DNA of 64,000 bases from Selaginella tamariscina. Lineage: Eukaryota; Streptophyta; Lycopodiopsida; Selaginellales; Selaginellaceae. Each line of letters opens with the position of its first letter. Position 1 is the first letter of the stretch. A program made the position numbers and the translations under genes. The stretch lies in NCBI GenBank assembly GCA_003024785.1, contig PUQB01000792.1, positions 33,160-97,159 of the forward strand. Reading direction: 5' to 3'. Positions 7,603 to 56,207 of this stretch are shown here, one piece after another. Below the pieces are notes generated by a model. The model had not been told where the DNA came from and made no database searches. It saw nothing but the letters and a program-made list of their open reading frames with translations.

Positions 7603-9233
7603 ATGGCACCCAAGAAGGGTGGAAAGGGCAAGAAGAAAGACGAAGGGCCAGTGGAAGACGAGGTTACGATATTGAAGAGGAAGGTTACGGAAGAGAAGCA
7701 GAGATTGCACAGCTTATTGAGAAGCTTAAGTTGCTTGAGGAGGAATCCAACAGCTTGCGGGGACCATCTTGCAAATACGTTCTGAGTCTGTGGAGCGTGG
7801 AGAGAAGCTAAATGACATCATGTATACTTGACTGGGTACGTACATGTGTATGTGTGTGCGTGTGTATACTTTGTATGTATGACTGTAGCATAGTTGATCA
7901 ATATGGATGTACACACACACAGATAAGGCACCACTTACATGATAATATGATGTATAGGTATAAACTTTGTATTCTATATATATAGATGTTTTATAAATAA
8001 ATTCTATCGTTAAATATGTAACTACATAAACTCTCGTTATATGTGCATTACTGGAGTTTTATATTTCACACACATACACACATTATAAATATCGCTATCC
8101 AATTGACAAATGTGAGATTGAATATATGTATGGAGTGTGTATAAGTATTTCTCTATGGGTTCACGCACACACAGGATATACAACAGATCTTAATACGACT
8201 TAACACACACAGACACTCATACATACACATTCACACACGCACGCACACAGACAACACATTATTTGCACACAGTTGTGGATTTATAGTTAATATTACTATT
8301 ATATATGTACATGTGTATGAAACTATATAACACTAATGCAAGAGCTTATTTGATATAATTATTATATTTTTTCTTGTTATAGAGAAGTGAAGATAAAGGC
8401 AGAGAAAAACAGCGGTTTTAGAAAAAGAGTTAACAACACTACAAGCAGAGCAGACAGAGTCAGCAGAGGCATTAAAGAAGGAAATAGAAGACTTAAGACA
8501 TGGCTACACATTTGCAATTGAGGACCTTCGTCTACAACTAGACAATGCCCAAGTTCAACTCCGGGACTTAAACGAGTTTACCATCACTAAACAGGCCCTT
8601 GAACAAGAGACCAAACGGTGTGTGTGTGGTGGGTGTGTAAACGTCCTTACCATCATAGAAGTGTGTGCGTGTGTGCATGTGTTATAAACAAGTTGACCAT
8701 CGCACAACCATCACTAGCTCTCTCTCTCTATATATGTGTGTGTGTGTTGTCTAACCGTGGTTAAACAAGAGCAGCGTGTGCCTCTTTGTATATGTGTTTA
8801 TTAACATGTTTTATCAAACTTCAATTGCTTATTTTATGATCAATAGCTTAAAGACCACAATACACATCATTACACTATGTATATACACATCCACGAACCG
8901 TATACTGCAGTAATATATACATTTTTATACTACACATTAATTTCGTGCTTTATATATACTATAAATAATAACCATAATTTTTTTACAGTTTAAAGGAGCA
9001 GCTAGAACGTGAGAAAAAAGAACACCAGGAAGCAATAAGTGATGTGGAGAGAGCAACACTGCAAGAAAGAGAGAGGCTTAAGAAGGAGATGGCTGCTCGT
9101 ATAGAGGACACTCGGAAAGAGATGATTAAGCAGGCTCATGAGCAGCTTCACACGGTAAAACTATCAATTTAATCTTAATTCCTAGTTTAATTAATTAACT
9201 AATATATATATTACTGCTATCTATAGTATCAAA

Positions 9234-11132: not shown

Positions 11133-12149
11133 AATCTCAAGTGGTTATATGTGTGGAGATTATAAATAATATGAATGTCCTAATTAAAAATAAAGACAGA
11201 ATTATCTACCCTCTCTCTCCCTCTCTCCCACACACACGCACACGCACACGCACATGGAGATGTGTATAATTAAGTTTACAACTCTGTTCCTTGTTATAAT
11301 AATAATGTCATGTGTTCATTCCGGATTAAAAACTGACGTTCTGTTCCTACTTGCTGTAATAATAATAAAAAAATTTATTTAATGTTTATTTTGTGTTCGT
11401 TCCGGATAATAAACTATTATTAAATAATTAAGTCCACCAACAGTGGGCATGTGTACTTGTGTACACATATATTTTTAAATTTAACATTATGAAAGAATTT
11501 AGTTTTTTTTTGAAAAAAAATAATTGAAAATACATTAAATATGTAAAATTTAATTATAATTTTGCATATAAATATATTAGTGTATTCATAATAATATGTC
11601 TAGGTATTTGTATCAACAATCGTAGTGGTTATTCTAAACTCAATCCATTTATTACGTGTGTATGTATGTATCAACAACCATCAACAACCACCCTAAATTT
11701 TATATAATAGTTAATTATTTCATCCAACGGTTATTTTAAACTCATAAAGTTAAGTGGGTTCATGTCCAATTATACATAAGTTCATCAGTTTAAGGAGGTT
11801 AAGGGTTAAGTTAAAAATGACAATTGAATTAATGAATAGCTTAAAAATAAATTTATCAAGTTAAAGATAATAGTTAGATTAAATGTCCAGAATAAATAAA
11901 AGGATACTAGTTTAAAGGTTCAACTTATGCATAAACTCATTAAATTAAGGATAATAATTAAATTAATTTAGGAATAAGCTCATTAGTTTAAGGATAGCAA
12001 TTAGATTAAGGTTATTAAATAGTTAAACTTAAGCATGGGTAACCTCCATAGTAAGGATAATAATTAGATTAAAAAATCATTAAATAGTTAAGCCATATAT
12101 AAAATCTTAAGGATAAACTTATTAAGTTAAGAATAATTACTTATCATTA
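11133..12149. repeat. AT-rich spacer with a degenerate minisatellite-like tract
   Basis: From about 11,760 to 12,140 the motif AAGGATAATAATTAGATTAA and close variants recur several times with irregular spacing, mixed with TTAAGTTAA. It looks like an old, drifted tandem repeat. The part nearer 11,133 is probably the 3' untranslated region of the CFAP157-like gene, including AATAAA-like sequence near 11,187. No coding signal. Confidence 0.5.
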
Positions 12150-12159
12150 CCATCGAGAT

Positions 12160-12655
12160 TTTGGAACCCAAAAGGAATAATAAGTACTAGAAGATCCTCA
12201 TTAATGAAACTTATAAATAGTGGTTTCACCATTTCACAAGTGAAGTTGTTCTCAGCAAAGATGACATCAGGGCTAATGAGGGTGACTTTAAAGAGTGGAT
12301 CTCAAAGTTTATACCATTTGTAGTTACGTTCCTATAGCTTACATAGTCAATAAAGATAAACTTCTTACTTTTTATATCAAGTTTCTTTTACAATTGATAA
12401 GAAATGTGAGCAAATGATGAACAACCAAATGCACAAAGATGAGACACATCTAGCTTTCACATTTCTTTAGGCGTTTTCCCCTTCAATACAACAATAGAAA
12501 GTTAATTTTGCACATGTAATGCCACAACAATTACCTTTTATCAAAATTCCTTATCCAACTTTACATAAAGTAAGAGGCTTCGTGCTACATTTATCAATGT
12601 TCAAGTCTTTCATACAGCAACTCCATTCTATTGTGGGAGTGTAGCGTGTTGTGAC
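12160..12655 (-). pseudogene. copia integrase C-terminal part (decayed)
   Basis: The minus strand shows QHATLPQ followed by a stop and NGVAV, matching the conserved segment just after the catalytic core of copia integrases. Then come LINVARSLLLYVKLDKEF, GKTPKEMWKARCV and YKWYKL, then DPLFKVTLISPDVIFAENN near 12,235-12,320, the typical end of the integrase region. Several stops and frame shifts interrupt it. Confidence 0.82.
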
Positions 12656-12689
12656 TTCATGCTAGATCCCATATATGCGACAAACATCA

Positions 12690-13058
12690 CAAAAGGCGAA
12701 GATGGTGTGGGGTTAGACCTCATAAATAAGATCAACCCCAGTTTATGTGAGTATTGTGTGTAGGAAAACATCACCGACAGAATTTCACTGTTTCCAAATG
12801 TCAAGCAAGTCACCCTATTGAGTTCATTCACTCATATTTATGTGACTCCATGGATGTCCCTAACCATTTAGGTGCAAAGTATTTTATAACTCTCACCAAT
12901 GCCTTAACATGCAAGATGTGTGTCTTCTTTCTGAGGAGCAAAGATGAAGTTGTAAAGGCCTTCAAACATTTCAAAACCTTTGTAAAGACCCAATTGAACC
13001 GGAAAATCAAGACGCTAAAAATCGATGGGGTAAGGAATATTTTAATAATGTTATCACT
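12690..13058 (+). pseudogene. copia integrase zinc-binding and core segment, inverted
   Basis: The plus strand encodes INPSLCEYC (the CC half of the integrase zinc site), then GKHHRQNF, ASHPIEFIHSYLCDSM, GAKYFITLTNALT, FFLRSKDEVVKAFKHFKTF, KIKTLKIDG and, in a shifted frame, GKEYFNN. This is the start and centre of a copia integrase. The first catalytic Asp appears as HSYLCDS rather than HSDLCGP, so it is altered. A TG-repeat slip breaks the frame just before GKHHRQ. It sits opposite in strand to the rest of the element, exactly where the core is missing. Confidence 0.88.
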
Positions 13059-13059
13059 A

Positions 13060-13650
13060 ACTCTTGTAGTGCTTTGTAATTTGCATGTCCAAAACGACAA
13101 TGCTAAAGATAAGCATTAGGCTGCAACTATTCAATAAATGTTGCTTGATGCACATAAGCCAATACCTTGTATAAGTTCCTTTGGTGTTTCCCATTGAGCA
13201 TCCTTTTTCTAACCATGTGAAAACTTGTGAAAAACACGTTGTCATCATAAAAAATAACCATTGCACCATTATCACACACCTTAGCCACAAACATCAGGTT
13301 CGTTCTCAAATTAAGAACATGCATGGCATTTGAAAAATCATTTCATTTCCATCATCAAGAATGAAATGAAACTTCTCACTACCTTGGATTCTAAAGCAAG
13401 TATCATTACTTAGGACCACTCATTTGGCTCCTTGTACTAGCTTATATTGCTCAAAATGACTTATTCATACTCATGAGGTTAGTACATCTAGAATCAAGAA
13501 CTTATGTCTCGACTTCCACATTGTGACTTTTTTCTTTAATCTCCTCACTTGCTTCAATCAGGGGCTTGCTTAGGTTTGTAGCTATGCTACCCAAGCAATC
13601 TCGAGCCCAATAGTTAAACTCCCAACACAGCTTACACTAATCATAACAGA
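13060..13650 (-). pseudogene. copia gag zinc knuckle, protease and pre-integrase (decayed)
   Basis: On the minus strand 13636-13595 reads CKLCWEFNYWARDC, a CX2CX4-X4C knuckle in which the usual His is Tyr. Then follow ILD and CTNLMSMNKSF (damaged protease DSG site, about 13,510-13,440), WVVLSNDTCFRIQGSEKF after a stop, LDDGNEMIF, NLMFVAKVCDNGAMVIFYDD, then HCRFGHANYKALQEL ending near 13,060. This order is diagnostic of copia gag-pol. Stops and shifts make it non-functional. Confidence 0.85.
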
Positions 13651-14270
13651 TACGTCTCACTCCTCTTATTGGGGCTTGATTATGCCCTTTTGTAGTGGAG
13701 ATGCCTCGTCCAACAACATACTACACCTCCTTGGTTGTCAAGACCAACTCAACCTCCACACACATTATTGTGTCCACGGCCACTTTACCTTTCATTCCAT
13801 TCCACCAAAGCCCACATTGGCTCTCTCATGACATACATTGCACAATGCACTTCATACGTTTGAGTTTTCTCTTTGTGTAATAGGGAGGTATTCATTAGTT
13901 TTGTGGTTGCCTCGTCAAACAAGAGATTCATTTCATACATCATTACTTCGGCAACATCATCCATTCCAATGGAGTAACTTGTAAAGCTTCATTCTCTGCA
14001 TTAAATTAAGAACCTTGTGTTCCTTTTTCTGGGTAGCAAAATTTGCAAAACAACCAACTCAAAGAGTCTATATATTGCTGCATATCTTTGCCATCTTCAA
14101 AGAAGCAAACCTCCAAAGTTGAGTGAATTCTCTATGTTAACTTTAAATAAAAATATCATGGCTGAGATAGGCACAAATACACTTCATTATTTATTCCTTC
14201 CCGAACTTTTAATCTTTAAGAACCTTTTGAACCTCCAACCCATTAATCACATTAGGCTGTGTTTATGAAG
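13651..14270 (-). pseudogene. Probable copia gag remnant
   Basis: Minus-strand reading in the position expected for gag, upstream of the zinc knuckle. It shows only weak gag-like stretches (for example DEATTKLMNTSLLHKEK). The call rests mainly on position; the N-terminal limit is a guess. The plus-strand ORFs at 13,695-13,880 and 14,017-14,268 have no recognisable content. Confidence 0.45.
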
Positions 14271-46898: not shown

Positions 46899-48560
46899 CA
46901 TATTTTAATTAAAAGCATTTAAATAACGACAATACAGTACACACTAATTTACCCGTATGTGCAAGAAAACTCCAAATAAACAACACTCTCTGACATTTAT
47001 GAATATTCTTTTTGAAATTCATATATTTATGTACGTATTCATATGTGTATAAAAGAATATATAAATGTCATACTTAATACACATAGCATTTGCATTGTAA
47101 GTAATTTACATCTGAAATTAGCATATTAACCATAATATATAAATGCAACATCAACATTGACAAAATTAGTTTATTAGTTTCTAAATAAATATATTGGTGT
47201 ATATCTGCACATATAGACTTATACAATATTATGTGTATATATAAAAGTATGTATCAACAGTATGTTAAAATGTATGTTCATGTGTATACCTGTTTATTGC
47301 GTTTTATGTTTACATTCTTCCATACATTATATACCTAATACAAGAGCGTATTTTATATGATGTAATACACCTTTATATGACGATTTTGTATGACTATGTA
47401 TACTGAGTATAGTAGTATGTAATATTCTTTTAAATATACTTAAGTATTTTTCGAATATGCTATGAAAGTAAATTCAAACACACACACACATATATATGTT
47501 CTATAGAACTTGTCTACTGTGTAAGTATGAACCTGATCAGATGTACACTACAATTAAGAAAGCTCAACACGTGGCAATGGTATGATGTGACACGTCACAT
47601 TATTAGCAAGATATGCTTCGTTGTGTAACCATAAACTTGGTTCTGCCCATAATTTAACAATTAAATTACTAATATGTTTGAATTGGATGGTTTAGATTTT
47701 ATTTTATTTAAAAATTCAAATTATATATAAATTAAATTATTCATTTTATGTTCATCAAAAGCAACTTCAAGAAGTGCAACTTTGATTTGAATCACTTGTA
47801 AAAATTAAATTATTTAAATTATTCATATAACTAAGTTATTTATAAAATTACTAGTAATTTAATATATTACACTTGACATTAAATTATTATTAACAGTTTC
47901 TTGTCTCATACGATTGTCAAACGTATATACTGGTGAAACATAATTTAGTTCCATCAAACTCCCTAAAAACATTATACAGGTATATATAATACATAAATAC
48001 AGAATATAAAAACTTAAATCTGAAACATATTCTTAATCTTAACCATTATTTATACAAAAACAAAAGATATTAATAAAATAATAATTTATAGTTAAAATTT
48101 ACTTAAGTTGGGGTAACACTCAATTGATATCTAAGATAATATGTGAAACTTAAATAATATTTAATTTAATAATTAAAACTTCTATAATATATATTGGTGT
48201 TGAAGTTATTAATATGTTATTATACAATAAGTAAAACCATTAAAAGTAATAATTATATTTTGTGTGTATGTATTAACATTTTTATGTTGATACATAATGT
48301 TGGATGCATGACTACATGTGGCTATAAAACAATTATTTCTCCTTAATTAATAATATATGTAAATTAAAAAAATAGGAAAGCATAAACATTGCTATCCTCC
48401 TATGTAATACCATCATATATTGTGTATGTATATTATATGTAAATTTTAAGTATATATATGTATTTATATCCGTTATGTTAAAATATTAATAAATTATGTT
48501 AGATTTCACTTTTGAAATTTAAAATGGAATACTATACCTATATAACAAGGATAATAACCC
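46600..48560 (+). repeat. Duplicated block, copy 4
   Basis: 46,600-47,010 matches 62,770-63,110 in direct orientation and 36,340-36,700 reversed; 47,020-48,560 matches 37,820-39,600. It includes a (TA)n tract at 46,828-46,895 and the CAACACGTGGCAATGG, then GTGACACGTCACATT, motifs at about 47,563-47,602. Confidence 0.7.
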
Positions 48561-48639
48561 TTACACCCTTTTATATAGGTAGGGATGTAAAAACATAAAA
48601 ATGCATTAACTTCTCTTGTGAGATAAATACAATATTATA

Positions 48640-49830
48640 ATAATATAATTAATTTGTATTTTATTATATTTAGTCCAAAATACAACCTATTAAACATATA
48701 TATCACAATATAATCATTTTTAAAAATATTTCATTTTTTACTATGACAGTTTTTTGACATTTAACACTTAAAAACTTTAATTATTTCATTTGTAATATAT
48801 TATGAATTAAAATATATTTTTAGTTAATATTGTTATTTTAAAGGGAAAATTACATTTATACTTTGAAATTTATTATATTTACATATATATGACTAAAGTT
48901 TTATTTATATATATACCCTTGAAATTTCAATTTAAAACTTCATAAATTTTAAAATTAAAAATTAAAAAATATTTTAAAAAATTAATAAAAATTTATAATT
49001 AATTTATAATTTTTATTTTAGGTTCAAAATACAATATTACATATATATCACAATAAAATAATTATTTTAAAAAATATTCACATATAAATAAAAAGAAATT
49101 TAATAAAGTAATTCTCCTCAACATAATCATAGAGTTGGTTTGATATTAAAATATATTTAATTAAATAAGTTAGAACTTATTTAACACTTTAATTATAAAT
49201 TTAAATCTATTTAATTAAATATATTCTTAATATCAAAATACTATATGATTATGCTATTTAAATTATTTTTAATAGGCTAACATATATTAACAATTTTAAA
49301 AGATAAATATATTGTTTTGCTAACCAAACTTTCATTCACATTGTATAATTTTTTATTTATGTGAATATTTTTAAAATAATATATTATATTGAAATATTTG
49401 TTTAATAGGTTGTATTTTGGACCTAAATATAATAAAATAAAATTAATTATAAATTTTTATTGATTTTTTAAAAATGATTTTTAAATTTTTAATTTTTAAT
49501 TTTTAATTTAAAATTTATGAAGTTTTAAATTGAAATTTGGTATATATATAAATATAAAACTTCTAGCATATATATGTAAATATGATAAATTTTAGGGTAT
49601 AAATGTAATTTTCCCTTTAAAATAACAATATTAACTAAAAATATATTTTCAATTCATAAATTATTACAAATGAAATAATTAAAGTTTATTAAGTGTTAAA
49701 TGTCAAAAAATTATCATAGTAAAAATGAATATATTTTAAAATAATTATATTATATTATGATATATATGTTTAATAGTTGTATTTGAACCTAAATATAATA
49801 AATAATAAATTAATTATAAATTTTTTAAAT
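48640..49830. repeat. Large fold-back (inverted-repeat) element, best copy
   Basis: Left and right halves are inverted copies: GGGAAAATTACATTTATA at 48,843 mirrors TATAAATGTAATTTTCCC ending at 49,615, and the symmetry continues outward (AATATTGTTATTTTAAAGGG against CCCTTTAAAATAACAATATT) and inward to a hairpin at 49,122-49,253. Arms are about 500 bp, imperfect, around an asymmetric centre near 49,190-49,230. Ends of the type GGGAAAATTACATTTATACC are common in plant non-autonomous DNA elements. No coding capacity. Confidence 0.75.
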
Positions 49831-49974
49831 TTTTTTAAAAATGATTTTTTATTTTGAAATTATGAAGTTTTAAATTAAGTTTCAGGGTATATATGTAAAT
49901 ATAAAACTTATAGGGATATATATGTAAATTATAAATTTTAGGGATATAAATGTAATTTTCCTTATTAATAAAGG

Positions 49975-50570
49975 GGAAATAGTTGCTTTATAACCACTTA
50001 CATGTTAATGATCAATTACTTTATGAAATCAAAAATATTGTTTTTGCTTAATTTAATTAATTCCTGACAGTTGACTATTGATTGTTAGGTAATCAAGATC
50101 ATGAAAAAATAAAATTCAATCTTCTTTACATGATCTTTTATGAAATATATTTATGTAATTCGACTTTCGTAATATCTTATTTTCTTATAATGACTCGTGT
50201 TATTTTCTTATGTATTTTTTTTTTCAATTTGTGTTACATACCGAAATGAAGCTAGAGAGTGATATAAACACTAACAATCGAAAATTCTGCACATTTGAAG
50301 TAATTAAGCTTGGTTCTCAAAATCATTTATATTTAATTTTAACATATTAATGGCTTTACTCATGCTGCAGTAAGTTTTAACAACTTAATAATTACGGGTG
50401 TGAATTTTTTAATTTTCATGTAGTTTATAGCATGAGTAGCATTTGCAACAAGAATAGCATGTGTTTAAATTAAAACCATGATACTAATTAAATAAACTCA
50501 ATATATTAAGTAATTATGATTTTTAAGTGTAATATGATTTTTTAAGTGTATATTCATATAATTAGAACTT
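49975..50570 (+). repeat. Direct repeat flanking the fold-back cluster, left copy
   Basis: Matches 55,347-55,890: both start GGGGAAATAGTT or GGGAAATAGTT followed by ...CTTTATA...CCAC and share TGCACATTTGAAGTAATT-like and CAGCATGAG-like stretches. The paired copies bracket the 50.8-55.3 kb repeat cluster. Confidence 0.65.
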
Positions 50571-51669
50571 CCACGTGGTCTTTGTATACGTCACATGAAC
50601 TAATCAAATTCAAATATTTAAAAAACATAATTTGTAACATAGAGTTTAAACATGCATAACTAAGTTGGTAAAGAATGGAGTGACTTGACTTAAATAAAGT
50701 TATTTCATACTTAAAATAACCACGTTATAATATGTTACCAAATGTAAAATCATAAGGACGTTAATAATATATAGATTATAAGCTATATACAATATGAAAT
50801 TAATTAAGTAAAATGCAACCTTTGCACATGTCATTTCTTACTATGACAACTTTTTGACATTTAACACTTAATAAACTTTAATTTAATATATTATAATTTA
50901 AAAATATATTTTTAGTTAATATTGTTATTTTAAAAAGTTAAAATATTACGATTAAAATTTTTCAAAAGTATATATGTAAATTTACAACATTTTAAAGGGG
51001 TATATAATGTAAATATAAAACTTCTAAGGTATATATGTAAATATGATAAATTTCAGGGGTTATAAATGTAAGTTTTTTCATTATTAAATAATATATGTAA
51101 ATTAAAAAAGTAAAAAGCATGTATATGCATGTCGTCGTTCTACCACTATTGTGTATGTAATTTTTTAAATATATATATATATATGTATTTATATCCGTTA
51201 TGTATAATAAAATATTAATAAATTATGTTAGAATTCACATTTCTTTAAATGGAATACTATACCCTTTTATATGGGATGTAAATAAATAAAAATTCATTAC
51301 TAGTGAAATAAATTCTCTTTTAATATCTAAAATATATGTAGCGTAAAACGTATTGTCCATGTTCTCTTTTTTTTAAATTCATATTTAACTATTTATCGGA
51401 GTGGTAATAAGGGTTTTTAATTGCAACAATCCTAAATTATGAAAAGTATGTTTTATATGTGTGATATTCAAATTTTGTTATATATTAAAATAAATTATAT
51501 AATGAGATATACGAATTTACCATAGATTATAGGAGGAGCCTTAATTAAATTTAGGTATGGTTTAACATGAATTCAAATGAGCCTTGTTAAGAAAAATTAA
51601 ATATCACATTTAGTTTACATTGTTTATATTAGTATGTCTATTTTATACATGCTCACAATCAATTATTTA
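50571..51669. other. AT-rich region with a partial fold-back arm
   Basis: 50,830-51,070 holds pieces of both arms of the fold-back family (TTTTTGACATTTAACACTTA and GGTTATAAATGTAAGTTTTT). 51,080-51,600 resembles 39,400-39,900. No gene seen. Confidence 0.5.
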
Positions 51670-52560
51670 CCCATTAATAATAGGAAAATTACATTTATAT
51701 CCTTGAAATTTATGATATTTACATATATACCCTTATAAGTTTTATATTTATATTATCCTTGAAATTTCAATTTAAAACTTTATAAATTTTAAAATTAAAA
51801 ATTAAAGTATTTTTCAAAAATTAATAAAATTTGTAATTAATTTATATTGTATTATATTTAGGTCCAAAATACAACCTATTAAACATATATATCACAATAT
51901 AATATAGTTATTTTTAAAAATATTCCTATGACAATTTTTGACATTTAACATTTAATAAACTTTAATTCTTTCATTTGTAAATATATTATGAATTGAAAAT
52001 ATATTTGTAGTTAATATTATTATTTTAAAGGGAAAATTACATTTACACCTTTGAAATTTATAATACTTACATATATATGCTTAGAAATATTATATTTATA
52101 TAAATTTTAATTTAAAACTTCATAAATTTTAAAATTAGAATTAAAAATTAAAAATCATTTTTAAAAAATCAATAAAAGTTTATAATTAATTTATTTTATT
52201 ATATTAGGTCCAAAATACAACTTATTAAACATATATATCACAATATAATATAATTATTTTTAAAAATATTCACATATAAATAGAAAAAAAATTAATTAAG
52301 TAATTCTCTTTAGCATAATCATATAGTTGGTTTGATATTAAGAATATATTTAAATAGGTTAGAACTTATTTAACACTTTAATTATAAATTTAAATCTATT
52401 TAATTAAATATATTCTTAATATCAAAATAGCTATAAAATTATGTTATTTAAACTATATTTAATAAGCTAACATAAATTAACAATTTTAAATAATAAATAT
52501 ATTATTTTTTCAAACCAAACTTTCATTCACTATACATTGTATAATCTTTAAACATTAAAA
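51670..52560. repeat. Fold-back family, nested left arms with hairpin
   Basis: Two left arms follow each other (GGAAAATTACATTTATATCC at 51,684 and GGGAAAATTACATTTACACC at 52,031). The second runs into the central hairpin at about 52,310-52,445, then ends without its right arm near 52,560, where unrelated TG-rich sequence begins. Confidence 0.65.
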
Positions 52561-52734
52561 GATTTTAATTATAATAATATGGTGTGTGTTTATATTTTGC
52601 CTGGTATAATATATGTGCGTGTGCATGCATGTAGAGTCTGATGTATGTATGTTATATTTCATGTGTATGTATATATATTCTTATAATGTGTATATGTATG
52701 TTACATGTACATCTTTTCTATAATTTATTATAGG

Positions 52735-53350
52735 GAAAATTACATTTATACTCCTAAAATTTATCATATTTACATATATACCTTAAAAATTTTATATTTA
52801 CATATATACCTTGAAAAACTTTAATTGTAAACATAATAAAATATACTCTTTTAAAATAACAATATTAACTAAAAATATATTTTTGATTTATGAATGAAAT
52901 AATTGAAATTTATTAAGTGTTAATATTAAAAAATGAATATTTTTAATAATTAATATTATATTGTGATATATATGTTTAATAGGTTTAATAGGACCTAAAT
53001 ATAATAAAATACAAATTAATTATAATTTTATTGATTTTCCAAAAATATTTTTTAATTTTTTTAATTTTGAAATTATGAAGTTTTGAATTAAAGTTTCAAG
53101 GGTACATATGTAAATATAAATTTTAATTAAAATTAGTTAATTCATAATATTTTAAATAAAATTATAAACATATATAAAAAATATTTTTAATTAATATTGT
53201 TATTTTAAAAGTCAAAATATTATGATTGAAGTTTTTCAAGGGTATAATGTAAATTTAAAACTTTTAAAGGGTATATATATAAATATAAAACTTTTACGGA
53301 TATGTATGTAAATATGATAAATTTCAAGGTATAAATGTAATTTTTCCTTA
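52735..53350. repeat. Fold-back family, short inverted copy
   Basis: Starts GGGAAAATTACATTTATACTCC at 52,735 and ends GGTATAAATGTAATTTTTCC at about 53,347, so a complete small element of about 610 bp that lacks the central hairpin. Confidence 0.6.
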
Positions 53351-53528
53351 ATTCAAACACATATGTTAATTGTTGTAAATGCTTCTCATGTTGTAAAACA
53401 GAGAGATTGAGGGAGCCACACTCGCAATTATTAAATAATATATTTAAAATTTAAATAATATTTAATTTAATAATTAAAACTTTATAATATTCACATATAA
53501 ATAACAAAAAATTTAATAAATAATCTCT

Positions 53529-53648
53529 CATAGAGTTGGTTTGATATTAAGAATATATTTAATTAAATAAGTTAAACTTATTTAACACTTTAATTATAAA
53601 TTTAAATCTATTTAATTAAATATATTCTTAATATCAAACAACTCTATG
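53529..53648. repeat. Near-perfect hairpin stem inside the fold-back family
   Basis: Arms 53,529-53,568 and 53,610-53,648 are reverse complements with about one mismatch or gap over 39-40 bp, around a 41-bp loop region that itself contains AAGTTAAACTT. Related hairpins lie at 49,122-49,253 and 52,310-52,445. The stem is much better preserved than surrounding repeat sequence. Confidence 0.8.
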
Positions 53649-53759
53649 ATTATGCTATTTAAATTATATTTAAAAGGCTAACATATATTAACAATTTTAA
53701 AAAATAAATATATTGGTTTTTCAAACCAAACTTTCATTCATTATACATTAATAATTTTT

Positions 53760-55345
53760 TTATTTATATGTGAATATTTTTATTTATATGTTTAATAGTT
53801 GTATTTTGGACCTAAATATAATAAAATAAAAATTAATTATAAATTTTTATTAATGTTTTAAAATGTTTTTTAATTTTGAAATTTTAAAATTTATGAAGTT
53901 TTAAATTGAAATTTCAAGAGTAAATATATATAATAAATTAAAACTTAAGGCATATATATGTAAATATGATAAATTTCAAGGGTATACATTAATTTTTCTT
54001 TAAAATAACAATATTAACTAAAAATATATTTTCAATCATAATATATTACAATGAAATAATTAAAGTTTATTAAGTGTTAAATGTTAAAAAATTGTCATAG
54101 TAAAAAATGGAATATTTTTAAAAATAAATATATTATATTGTGATATATATGTTTAATAAGTTATATTTTGGACCTAAATATAATAAAGTACAAATTAATT
54201 ATAATTTTTATTGATTTTTTAAAAATGTTTTATAATTTTGAATTTTGAAATTTATGAAGTTTTAAATTGAAATTCAAAGGTATATATATAATATAAAACT
54301 TCAGACATATATATAAATATGATAAATTTTAGGGGTATAAATATAAATTTTCCTTTAAATAACAATATTAACTAAAATATATTTTTAATTCATAATATAT
54401 TTCAAATGAAATAATTAAAGTTTATTAAGTGTTAAATGTTAAAAAATTACCATAGTAAAAAATGGAATATTTTAAAAATAATTATATTATATTGTGATAT
54501 ATATGTTTAATAGGTTTGTATTTTGGACTTAAATATAATAAAATACAAATTAATTATAAATTTTTTTTATTTTTTAAAAATGTTTTTTAATTTTAATTTT
54601 GAATGTTAAAATTTATGAAGTTTTAATTTGAAATTTCAGGGTTATATATAAATATAAAACTTTAGGTTATATATATAAATATGATCAATTTTAGGGGTAC
54701 AAATGTAATTTTCCCTTTAAAATAACAATGTTAAAACATTGTCATAGTAAAAAATGGAATATTTTTTAAAAATAATTATATTATATTATGATATATATGT
54801 TTAATAAGTTGTATTTTGGACCTAAATATAATAAAATAAAAATTAATTATAAATTTTATTGATTTTTAAAAATAAGTTTTAATTTTAATTTTGAAATTTA
54901 TGAAGTTTTAAATTGAAATTTCAGGGATATATATATAAATATAAACTTCAAGGCGTATATATGTAAATATGATAAATTTTAGGGGTATAAATGTAAATTT
55001 CCCTTTAAATAATAATATTAATTAATATACTTTCAATTTATAATATATTACAAATAAATAATTAAAGTTTATTAAGTATTAAATATCAAAAATTGTCATA
55101 GTAAAAAATGGAATATTTTTTAAAATAATTATATTATATTGTAATATATATGTTCAATAGGTTGTATTTTGGACCTAAATATAATCAAATAAAAATTAAT
55201 TATATAATTTTATTAATTTTCTTAAATGTTTTTTAATTTTAAATTTGAAATTTATAAAGTTTTTAATTGAAGTTTTAGGTTATATATATAGGGGTATATA
55301 TATAATATCATAAATTTCAGGGGTATAAATATAATTTTTCTTATT
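53760..55345. repeat. Tandem array of fold-back right arms
   Basis: About five successive copies of the right arm, each ending near GGGGTATAAATGTAATTTTCC or a variant (about 53,990, 54,345, 54,712, 55,003 and 55,335), so the period is about 290-370 bp. Each contains TTGTATTTTGGACCTAAATA and TTTATGAAGTTTTAAATTGA. The copies differ by many small changes. Confidence 0.75.
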
Positions 55346-55346
55346 A

Positions 55347-55890
55347 ATTAAGGGAAATAGTTACTTTATAGCCACATGTATGTTAATGATGAGCTTGTGT
55401 TATGAAATTGAAAATATTGTTCCTACTCAATTTGATTTTTATGAATATATATTTATGCAATTCAATTTTCGTAACATTTTATTTTTTTATAACGGCTCGT
55501 GTTATTCTCTGTGTATTTTTTATTAGTTTGTGTTGCATACCAAAATGAAGCGAGAGGTGGTTAAACATTGATAATAAAATATTTGTACATTTGAAGTAAT
55601 TGTGACTTTCAAAATTATATAAATTTAATTTTAACGTATGAATGGCCTACACATCATGCTGTAACAAGTTTAAATAACTTAATAATGTGGGTGTCTTCTT
55701 TAATTTCCTTATTATTTACAGCATGAGAAGTATTTGTAATAAAAATAGCATATGTATTTGAATTAAAACCATGCTATTAATTAAATAAACTCAATAATAT
55801 TAAGTAAAATTATGGTTTTTAAGTTTATATGAAATAGATTTTAAATATATATTTTAAGTGTATATTGCATATAATTAAACTTCCATTACA
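55347..55890 (+). repeat. Direct repeat flanking the fold-back cluster, right copy
   Basis: Partner of 49,975-50,570; same order of landmarks with indels. Confidence 0.65.
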
Positions 55891-56207
55891 TGCACACACA
55901 TAATGTATGTGTCCACAATATGTAATATGTATGTTTTATATTCTTTCATATATACATTATATACCAGAGTGTATGCTAAGGGAGGTTAGGTTTTATAATT
56001 AGATGTGCTAATTAGCACATTTGGCTAAAGGGTGTTTTTTTTAAGGATATAATTAATTTTTAAGTATTATATAATTTTCAAACTCTAAAATTTATTATTA
56101 GTATCTTTGATTTTTTATTATTTATATTGAATACACGATATTGAATGTAATAATAATATTCTTTAAATATACTGAATTACTTTCTGTTAAAAATTCTATT
56201 ATAAATT
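55891..56207. other. AT-rich spacer, nothing recognised
   Basis: No coding or repeat signal beyond low complexity. Confidence 0.4.

Follow-up and report, generated by a model that had tools for sequence, protein, structure and literature searches.

The closest described counterparts of the rearrangement reported here are short inversions in animal and chloroplast DNA and, for the DNA that carries it, retrotransposons of the Ty1/copia type. In the portions of the avian study available to us, 54 microinversions of 5–38 bp were found in 15.6 kb of alignment, at a rate of 0.39 per Mb per My, or 0.25 when hotspots are left out (PMC3123225). The accessible part of a human–chimpanzee comparison gives 59 inversions of 17–33 nt, all with flanking inverted repeats, and puts their frequency some five orders of magnitude below that of substitutions (PMC8755829). 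In chloroplast DNA, small inversions, as the same portions of the avian study cite them, recur and are mostly associated with palindromes (PMC3123225).

Here we describe a 353-bp stretch that has been inverted in place inside a dead copia element of Selaginella tamariscina. It resembles the avian microinversions in being a short in-place reversal in non-coding DNA (overlapping hotspot events without stem-loops, which the available avian text describes, are a further likeness), whereas the avian events measure only 5–38 bp (PMC3123225). The human–chimpanzee events, likewise short blocks reversed in place in non-coding DNA, differ in spanning 17–33 nt and, in the part of that report at hand, in having flanking inverted repeats, of which there are none at the edges of our block (PMC8755829). 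With the chloroplast inversions the locus shares the recurrence of small flips, but no palindrome of the kind cited for them lies at its edges (PMC3123225). The element itself has the pre-integrase region, integrase core and SH3 domain of a Ty1/copia retrotransposon, with RVT_2 next in related copies; unlike an intact one, it is truncated after SH3, contains many stops and carries its integrase core in reverse.

A literature search by title found, among the matches listed, no paper on small in-place inversions inside a dead copia family. One plant genome paper reportedly mentions an internal inversion once, a study of ancient viral insertions is said to mention a microinversion once, and one paper reportedly has end joining in maize as its subject.

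Results

The window, by which we mean the whole stretch of 64,000 nt that was analysed (contig C1162, positions 33160–97159, in an assembly of 300.7 Mb and 1,391 contigs), contains what is, judged from its sequence, a truncated and dead Ty1/copia retrotransposon on the minus strand, extending from the upstream part through SH3. Its parts are as follows.

12143..12147, no strand: end of family similarity in the window copy; the RT half of other copies is absent beyond here
12145..12697, minus strand: C-terminal part of the integrase and SH3-like domain of the same element (blastn to family copies; SH3_retrovirus piece)
12697..12698, no strand: left junction; 12,697 (C) and 13,050 (G) match one and the same base of normal copies, a gain of 1 bp
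12698..13050, plus strand: inverted block, holding the end of the pre-integrase zinc region and the integrase core (orientation in family copies; tblastn to copia integrases)
13050..13051, no strand: right junction; one base of normal copies (A, in the direction of the core) is absent in the window
13051..14261, minus strand: the decayed element's upstream portion, where gag and protease would lie, as far as the pre-integrase region (blastn to family copies; gag_pre-integrs piece)

We searched ten short stop-free pieces of the element against Pfam. On the minus strand, a piece at 13,010–13,102 matched GAG-pre-integrase (E 0.0012, profile positions 28–43 of 67) below the curated cut-off, as did a short piece at 12,391–12,456 to SH3_retrovirus (E 0.0006); Pol_BBD reached only E 0.22. 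Three stop-free pieces at the position of gag gave no Pfam match to a gag family, and the label gag for the upstream part reflects its position together with a zinc-knuckle-like motif read by eye. The plus-strand piece gave no Pfam match to an integrase family. Translated, plus-strand positions 12,763–13,026 are 34% identical to the integrase core in two records of copia type (tblastn E 3e-10) and match copia integrases at E 2.6e-11 when the window alone is the target; the top PDB sequence match for this piece, a weak one, is the Ty1 integrase (E 0.33). With the Pfam pieces on the minus strand and the integrase core on the plus strand, the strand switch within a copia element that a preliminary description of this DNA had pointed out is real.

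Stops are frequent on both strands of the element, so the integrase is dead in any case. The copy ends near 12,145, without the RT half, while other family copies continue, and no paired long terminal repeats were recognised around it among the 20 of 56 repeat families listed. Just past the truncated end, positions 11838–12146 hold four imperfect copies of a 43-nt A+T-rich unit (repeat family D5).

Family copies were collected from the assembly with the integrase core as probe. The core has at least 39 matches, and the 36 loci that we fetched cover all 39. In relatives, the integrase is followed on the same strand by SH3_retrovirus (8.3e-26 in L024) and then by RVT_2 (3.4e-28 in L020; 5.6e-6, below the cut-off, in L024). 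With the integrase ahead of SH3 and RVT_2, the relatives, rather than the window copy, therefore have the Ty1/copia order. Two of them carry short direct repeats far apart (70 bp in L025, 117 bp in L038), which are possibly LTRs. Another repeat, the younger element B, borders or breaks into copia copies at a fixed terminus (from 3787 in L021, 4505 in L044 and 3883 in L039, and up to 4625 in L037).

In all 33 of the 33 loci elsewhere, representing about 23 insertion sites, blastn shows the core, or whatever portion of it is present, sharing its orientation with one or more neighbouring parts of the element; the window's core points the other way. When all loci were compared against all, the block lay reversed between collinear flanks, with nothing else moved, against 22, 22 and 23 loci for the three contigs that carry the window's site. 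The 353-bp stretch from 12,698 to 13,050 is inverted in place. The normal-orientation copies of the family supply the unbroken arrangement and so bear out the earlier reading of a clean in-situ inversion; the left and right coordinates given with that reading, 12,655 and 13,060, have to be shifted by 43 and 10 bp, respectively, to breakpoints taken from the family copies at 12,697/12,698 and 13,050/13,051.

The family copies also allow each junction to be read base by base. At the left junction, a single G of the normal copies matches both 12,697 and 13,050 in 13 of the 26 loci with a printed junction, and the remaining 13 show nearby mismatches or gaps. At the right junction, which is printed for 22 loci, 11 carry exactly one A that the window lacks, nine others have the A plus further unaligned bases, and two (L020 and L041) have no extra base. 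Put differently, the normal-copy counterparts of 12,697 and 13,050 are adjacent or one and the same base, and 12,698 corresponds to a base one removed from that of 13,051. The net change is +1 bp at one junction and −1 bp at the other, in keeping with the earlier remark that nothing large is missing or duplicated at either edge.

The junction alignments contain no microhomology at the joined ends. Short inverted repeats at the edges, a possibility raised in the preliminary description, are absent from the window's junctions; the nearest inverted pair that spans the block is 18 nt long, 78% complementary and about 100 and 85 bp outside it. Two normal copies, L022 and L024, have no inverted pair at the corresponding edges either, and a third, L015, has an 8-bp perfect pair close to both (2585–2592 and 2961–2968; E 3.4), which we take as chance. 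Flipping between inverted repeats was rejected on these grounds.

Among the 36 loci, the window's flip occurs at one insertion site only, on all three contigs there: C1162 (the window), C343 and C610, which can be aligned along the flanks and the element. Both junctions are base-identical on the three, with one inserted base in C610 nine bases into the block. Counting substitutions alone, with gaps left out, C610 is 98.6–99.2% identical to the window in the flanks and 98.7–99.7% in the element, and C343 is 100% identical in the element and at least 99.0% in the flanks covered; gapped BLAST identities to the window are 95.6–96.3% and 98.7%, respectively. By sequence comparison the three contigs are alleles or recent duplicates of one site.

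Trees were built from 19, 27, 10 and 28 of the 36 loci, leaving out loci whose match covered less than 60% of the region. They are star-like, with terminal branches mostly of 0.06–0.16 and two near 0.4, so the closest copies cannot be told. The branch of the window's site measures 0.149 for the upstream part, 0.152 for the integrase end with SH3 and 0.152 for the core (trees of 19, 27 and 28 loci), and such equality is expected if flanks and core belong to one old copy. Core and flanks match the same copies of one copia family, with similar branch lengths, and we therefore rejected a second insertion, as the preliminary description had done, along with the origin of the plus-strand piece in a different copia lineage, which it had named as what would undo its reading.

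Other copies of the family contain further reversed segments. Numbering the window's flip E1, we found three more definite in-place inversions of about 150–340 bp (E2, E3 and E5) and one probable case (E4):

E2, reversed: L032:2759–3098 and L035:2736–3069; about 334–340 bp; in place against 22 and 24 loci
E3, reversed: L038:2702–2890 and L039:2717–2903; about 187–189 bp; in place against 19 and 21 loci
E4, reversed: L014:1697–1770; about 74 bp; probable, not counted as definite; the neighbouring 74 bp are unexplained
E5, reversed: L016:4503–4651 and L025:804–972, also in L018 and L019; about 150–170 bp near the 3' end; in place against 6 to 7 loci

E2 is flush on one side and has lost about 13 bp (L035) or 29 bp (L032) on the other. 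E3 has lost about 10 bp relative to four of five reference copies (0 relative to L021) and 3–5 bp on its other side; at its left edge L038 has a 16-nt inverted pair with both arms on that side. Two further reversed segments are ambiguous: one of about 70 bp near the 3' end (L028:4249–4323 and L025:611–684), on which copies disagree with each other, and one of 45–48 bp in L036 (1497–1544) and L037, seen against L043 alone.

Where loci have an event in common, the DNA they share extends past the element at one end or both, and each event therefore looks confined to one old site that has since been duplicated. L038 and L039 have 1,017 bases in common at 97%, and L025 has DNA beyond the element in common with L016, L018 and L019. 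L032 and L035 were counted as one site because, at one end, a single uninterrupted match of about 83% crosses from the flank they share into the element; the confinement of E2 is the least certain among the events.

Three of the five blocks, E1, E2 and E3, overlap on the integrase. Random placement based on coverage gives such an overlap in 9% of 20,000 trials, and an inversion hotspot in the integrase was rejected (P about 0.09, not significant); using the core as probe in itself favours finding overlap there.

To express recurrence as a rate, we counted 66,423 site-bases over 25 groups, or 24 once L025 is joined with L016, L018 and L019. Multiplied by about 0.12 substitutions per site, as judged from the trees, this gives an estimated total of roughly 8,000 substitutions. 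Four definite events (three without the window's own, which prompted the search) over about 24 insertion sites and 66 kb thus amount to an estimated one per 2,000 substitutions, a figure not directly comparable with the avian and human–chimpanzee rates, because those studies sought shorter events. For element B, which the flanks of ten stretches share, the matches listed for three queries include no in-place inversion, a null result that is uninformative about rate in either direction because, on a rough estimate, little more than one event would be expected at the rate of the copia family.

Discussion

We favor, with a probability of about 0.78, an origin by two nearby double-strand breaks that struck a dead copy once the family had gone through its burst of transposition, followed by end joining of the fragment in reverse orientation. 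In such a sequence of events, the family would have transposed first and the flip would have followed, after insertion. Two breaks about 353 bp apart would have freed the piece, and end joining would have restored it reversed, with one overhanging base filled in at one break and one base trimmed at the other. The element, non-coding by then or later, would have had no function, and nothing would have removed the flip. Our reason for preferring two breaks and end joining is the combination of near-clean edges, a single-base gain and loss, the lack of edge repeats, and the short deletions at E2 and E3. End joining commonly brings such small losses, and the near-blunt junctions of the window (+1/−1 bp) and the small losses of E2 and E3 are of the kind that it leaves. 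The family's other in-place inversions may fit the same process.

The same outcome could be reached by a template switch: during repair or replication, the polymerase would have moved onto the other strand, synthesised 353 bases from it and then returned. The short human–chimpanzee inversions are explained in this way or, as the authors prefer in the part of their report available to us, by microhomology-mediated break-induced replication (PMC8755829). The 8-bp pair of L015 near both edges and the 16-nt pair of E3 in L038 lean in this direction, and a double switch would look no different if its microhomology had been short or had since mutated away, over a branch of about 0.15. However, the human–chimpanzee events, 17–33 nt long and, in that text, all flanked by inverted repeats (PMC8755829), have no parallel at the window's edges, and the window's block is ten times longer. 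Nor is there an inverted repeat in L022 or L024, or microhomology at either junction. We regard a template switch as unlikely.

The block may instead be a patch copied in backwards from another copy, with exact loss of the element's own piece, a reading on which the star-like phylogeny does not discriminate. That the flip was made during reverse transcription, so that the element inserted already inverted, strikes us as very improbable: presence on all three contigs of the site implies that the flip is not recent, which would suit such an origin, but the same flip is found at no second site among the 36 loci, and each of the other definite inversions likewise seems restricted to a single site. 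An assembly error, or a separate fragment nested there in the reverse direction, is scarcely credible and was rejected, since, although the evidence comes from contigs alone and C343, identical to the window over the whole element, is a weak independent witness, C610 is about 1% diverged and has the same base-exact junctions, and a nested fragment would sit poorly with single bases gained or lost and with a block and flanks of one family.

The window's flip is an ordinary mutation, part of the decay of dead DNA, and small inversions in decayed repeats are to be expected. It matters mainly because its limits are known with single-base precision against many unflipped control copies, and is mildly notable in that different blocks have flipped in other copies of the element. 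Only this recurrence in the copia family could become interesting. It is a tentative and on balance doubtful idea that decay in this genome, or in this copia family, commonly takes the form of inversions of about 150–350 bp that lack flanking repeats; if true, their frequency would point to unusual break repair. With several independent medium-sized inversions in one dead family, multi-copy dead retrotransposons would offer a convenient measure of double-strand break repair in this genome, provided that the rate in a control family is equal or lower.

Several observations concern the wider window and the family's distribution. Scanning the window for Rfam families and tRNAs gave no hits. On the plus strand at 8978–9169 lies an exon-like open frame for a coiled coil, with a sub-threshold match to SPATA24 (E 8e-4), perhaps part of a gene beside the element. 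The stretch from 48001 to 56000 is very A+T-rich (G+C 15–20%), and GC skew reaches 0.28 at 54,001–56,000. A search for related loci in viral contigs and in a collection of genome contigs found no relative, tblastn against phages gave weak matches only (E 0.5 to 0.7), and tblastn of two flank pieces against plasmids gave no match. Two Streptomycetaceae records labelled as plasmids, of 4.6 and 5.2 kb (NZ_CP115454.1 and NZ_CP115302.1), have under their match a gene that encodes a copia-type polyprotein, and we infer that they are DNA of a host plant or soil eukaryote deposited as plasmids.
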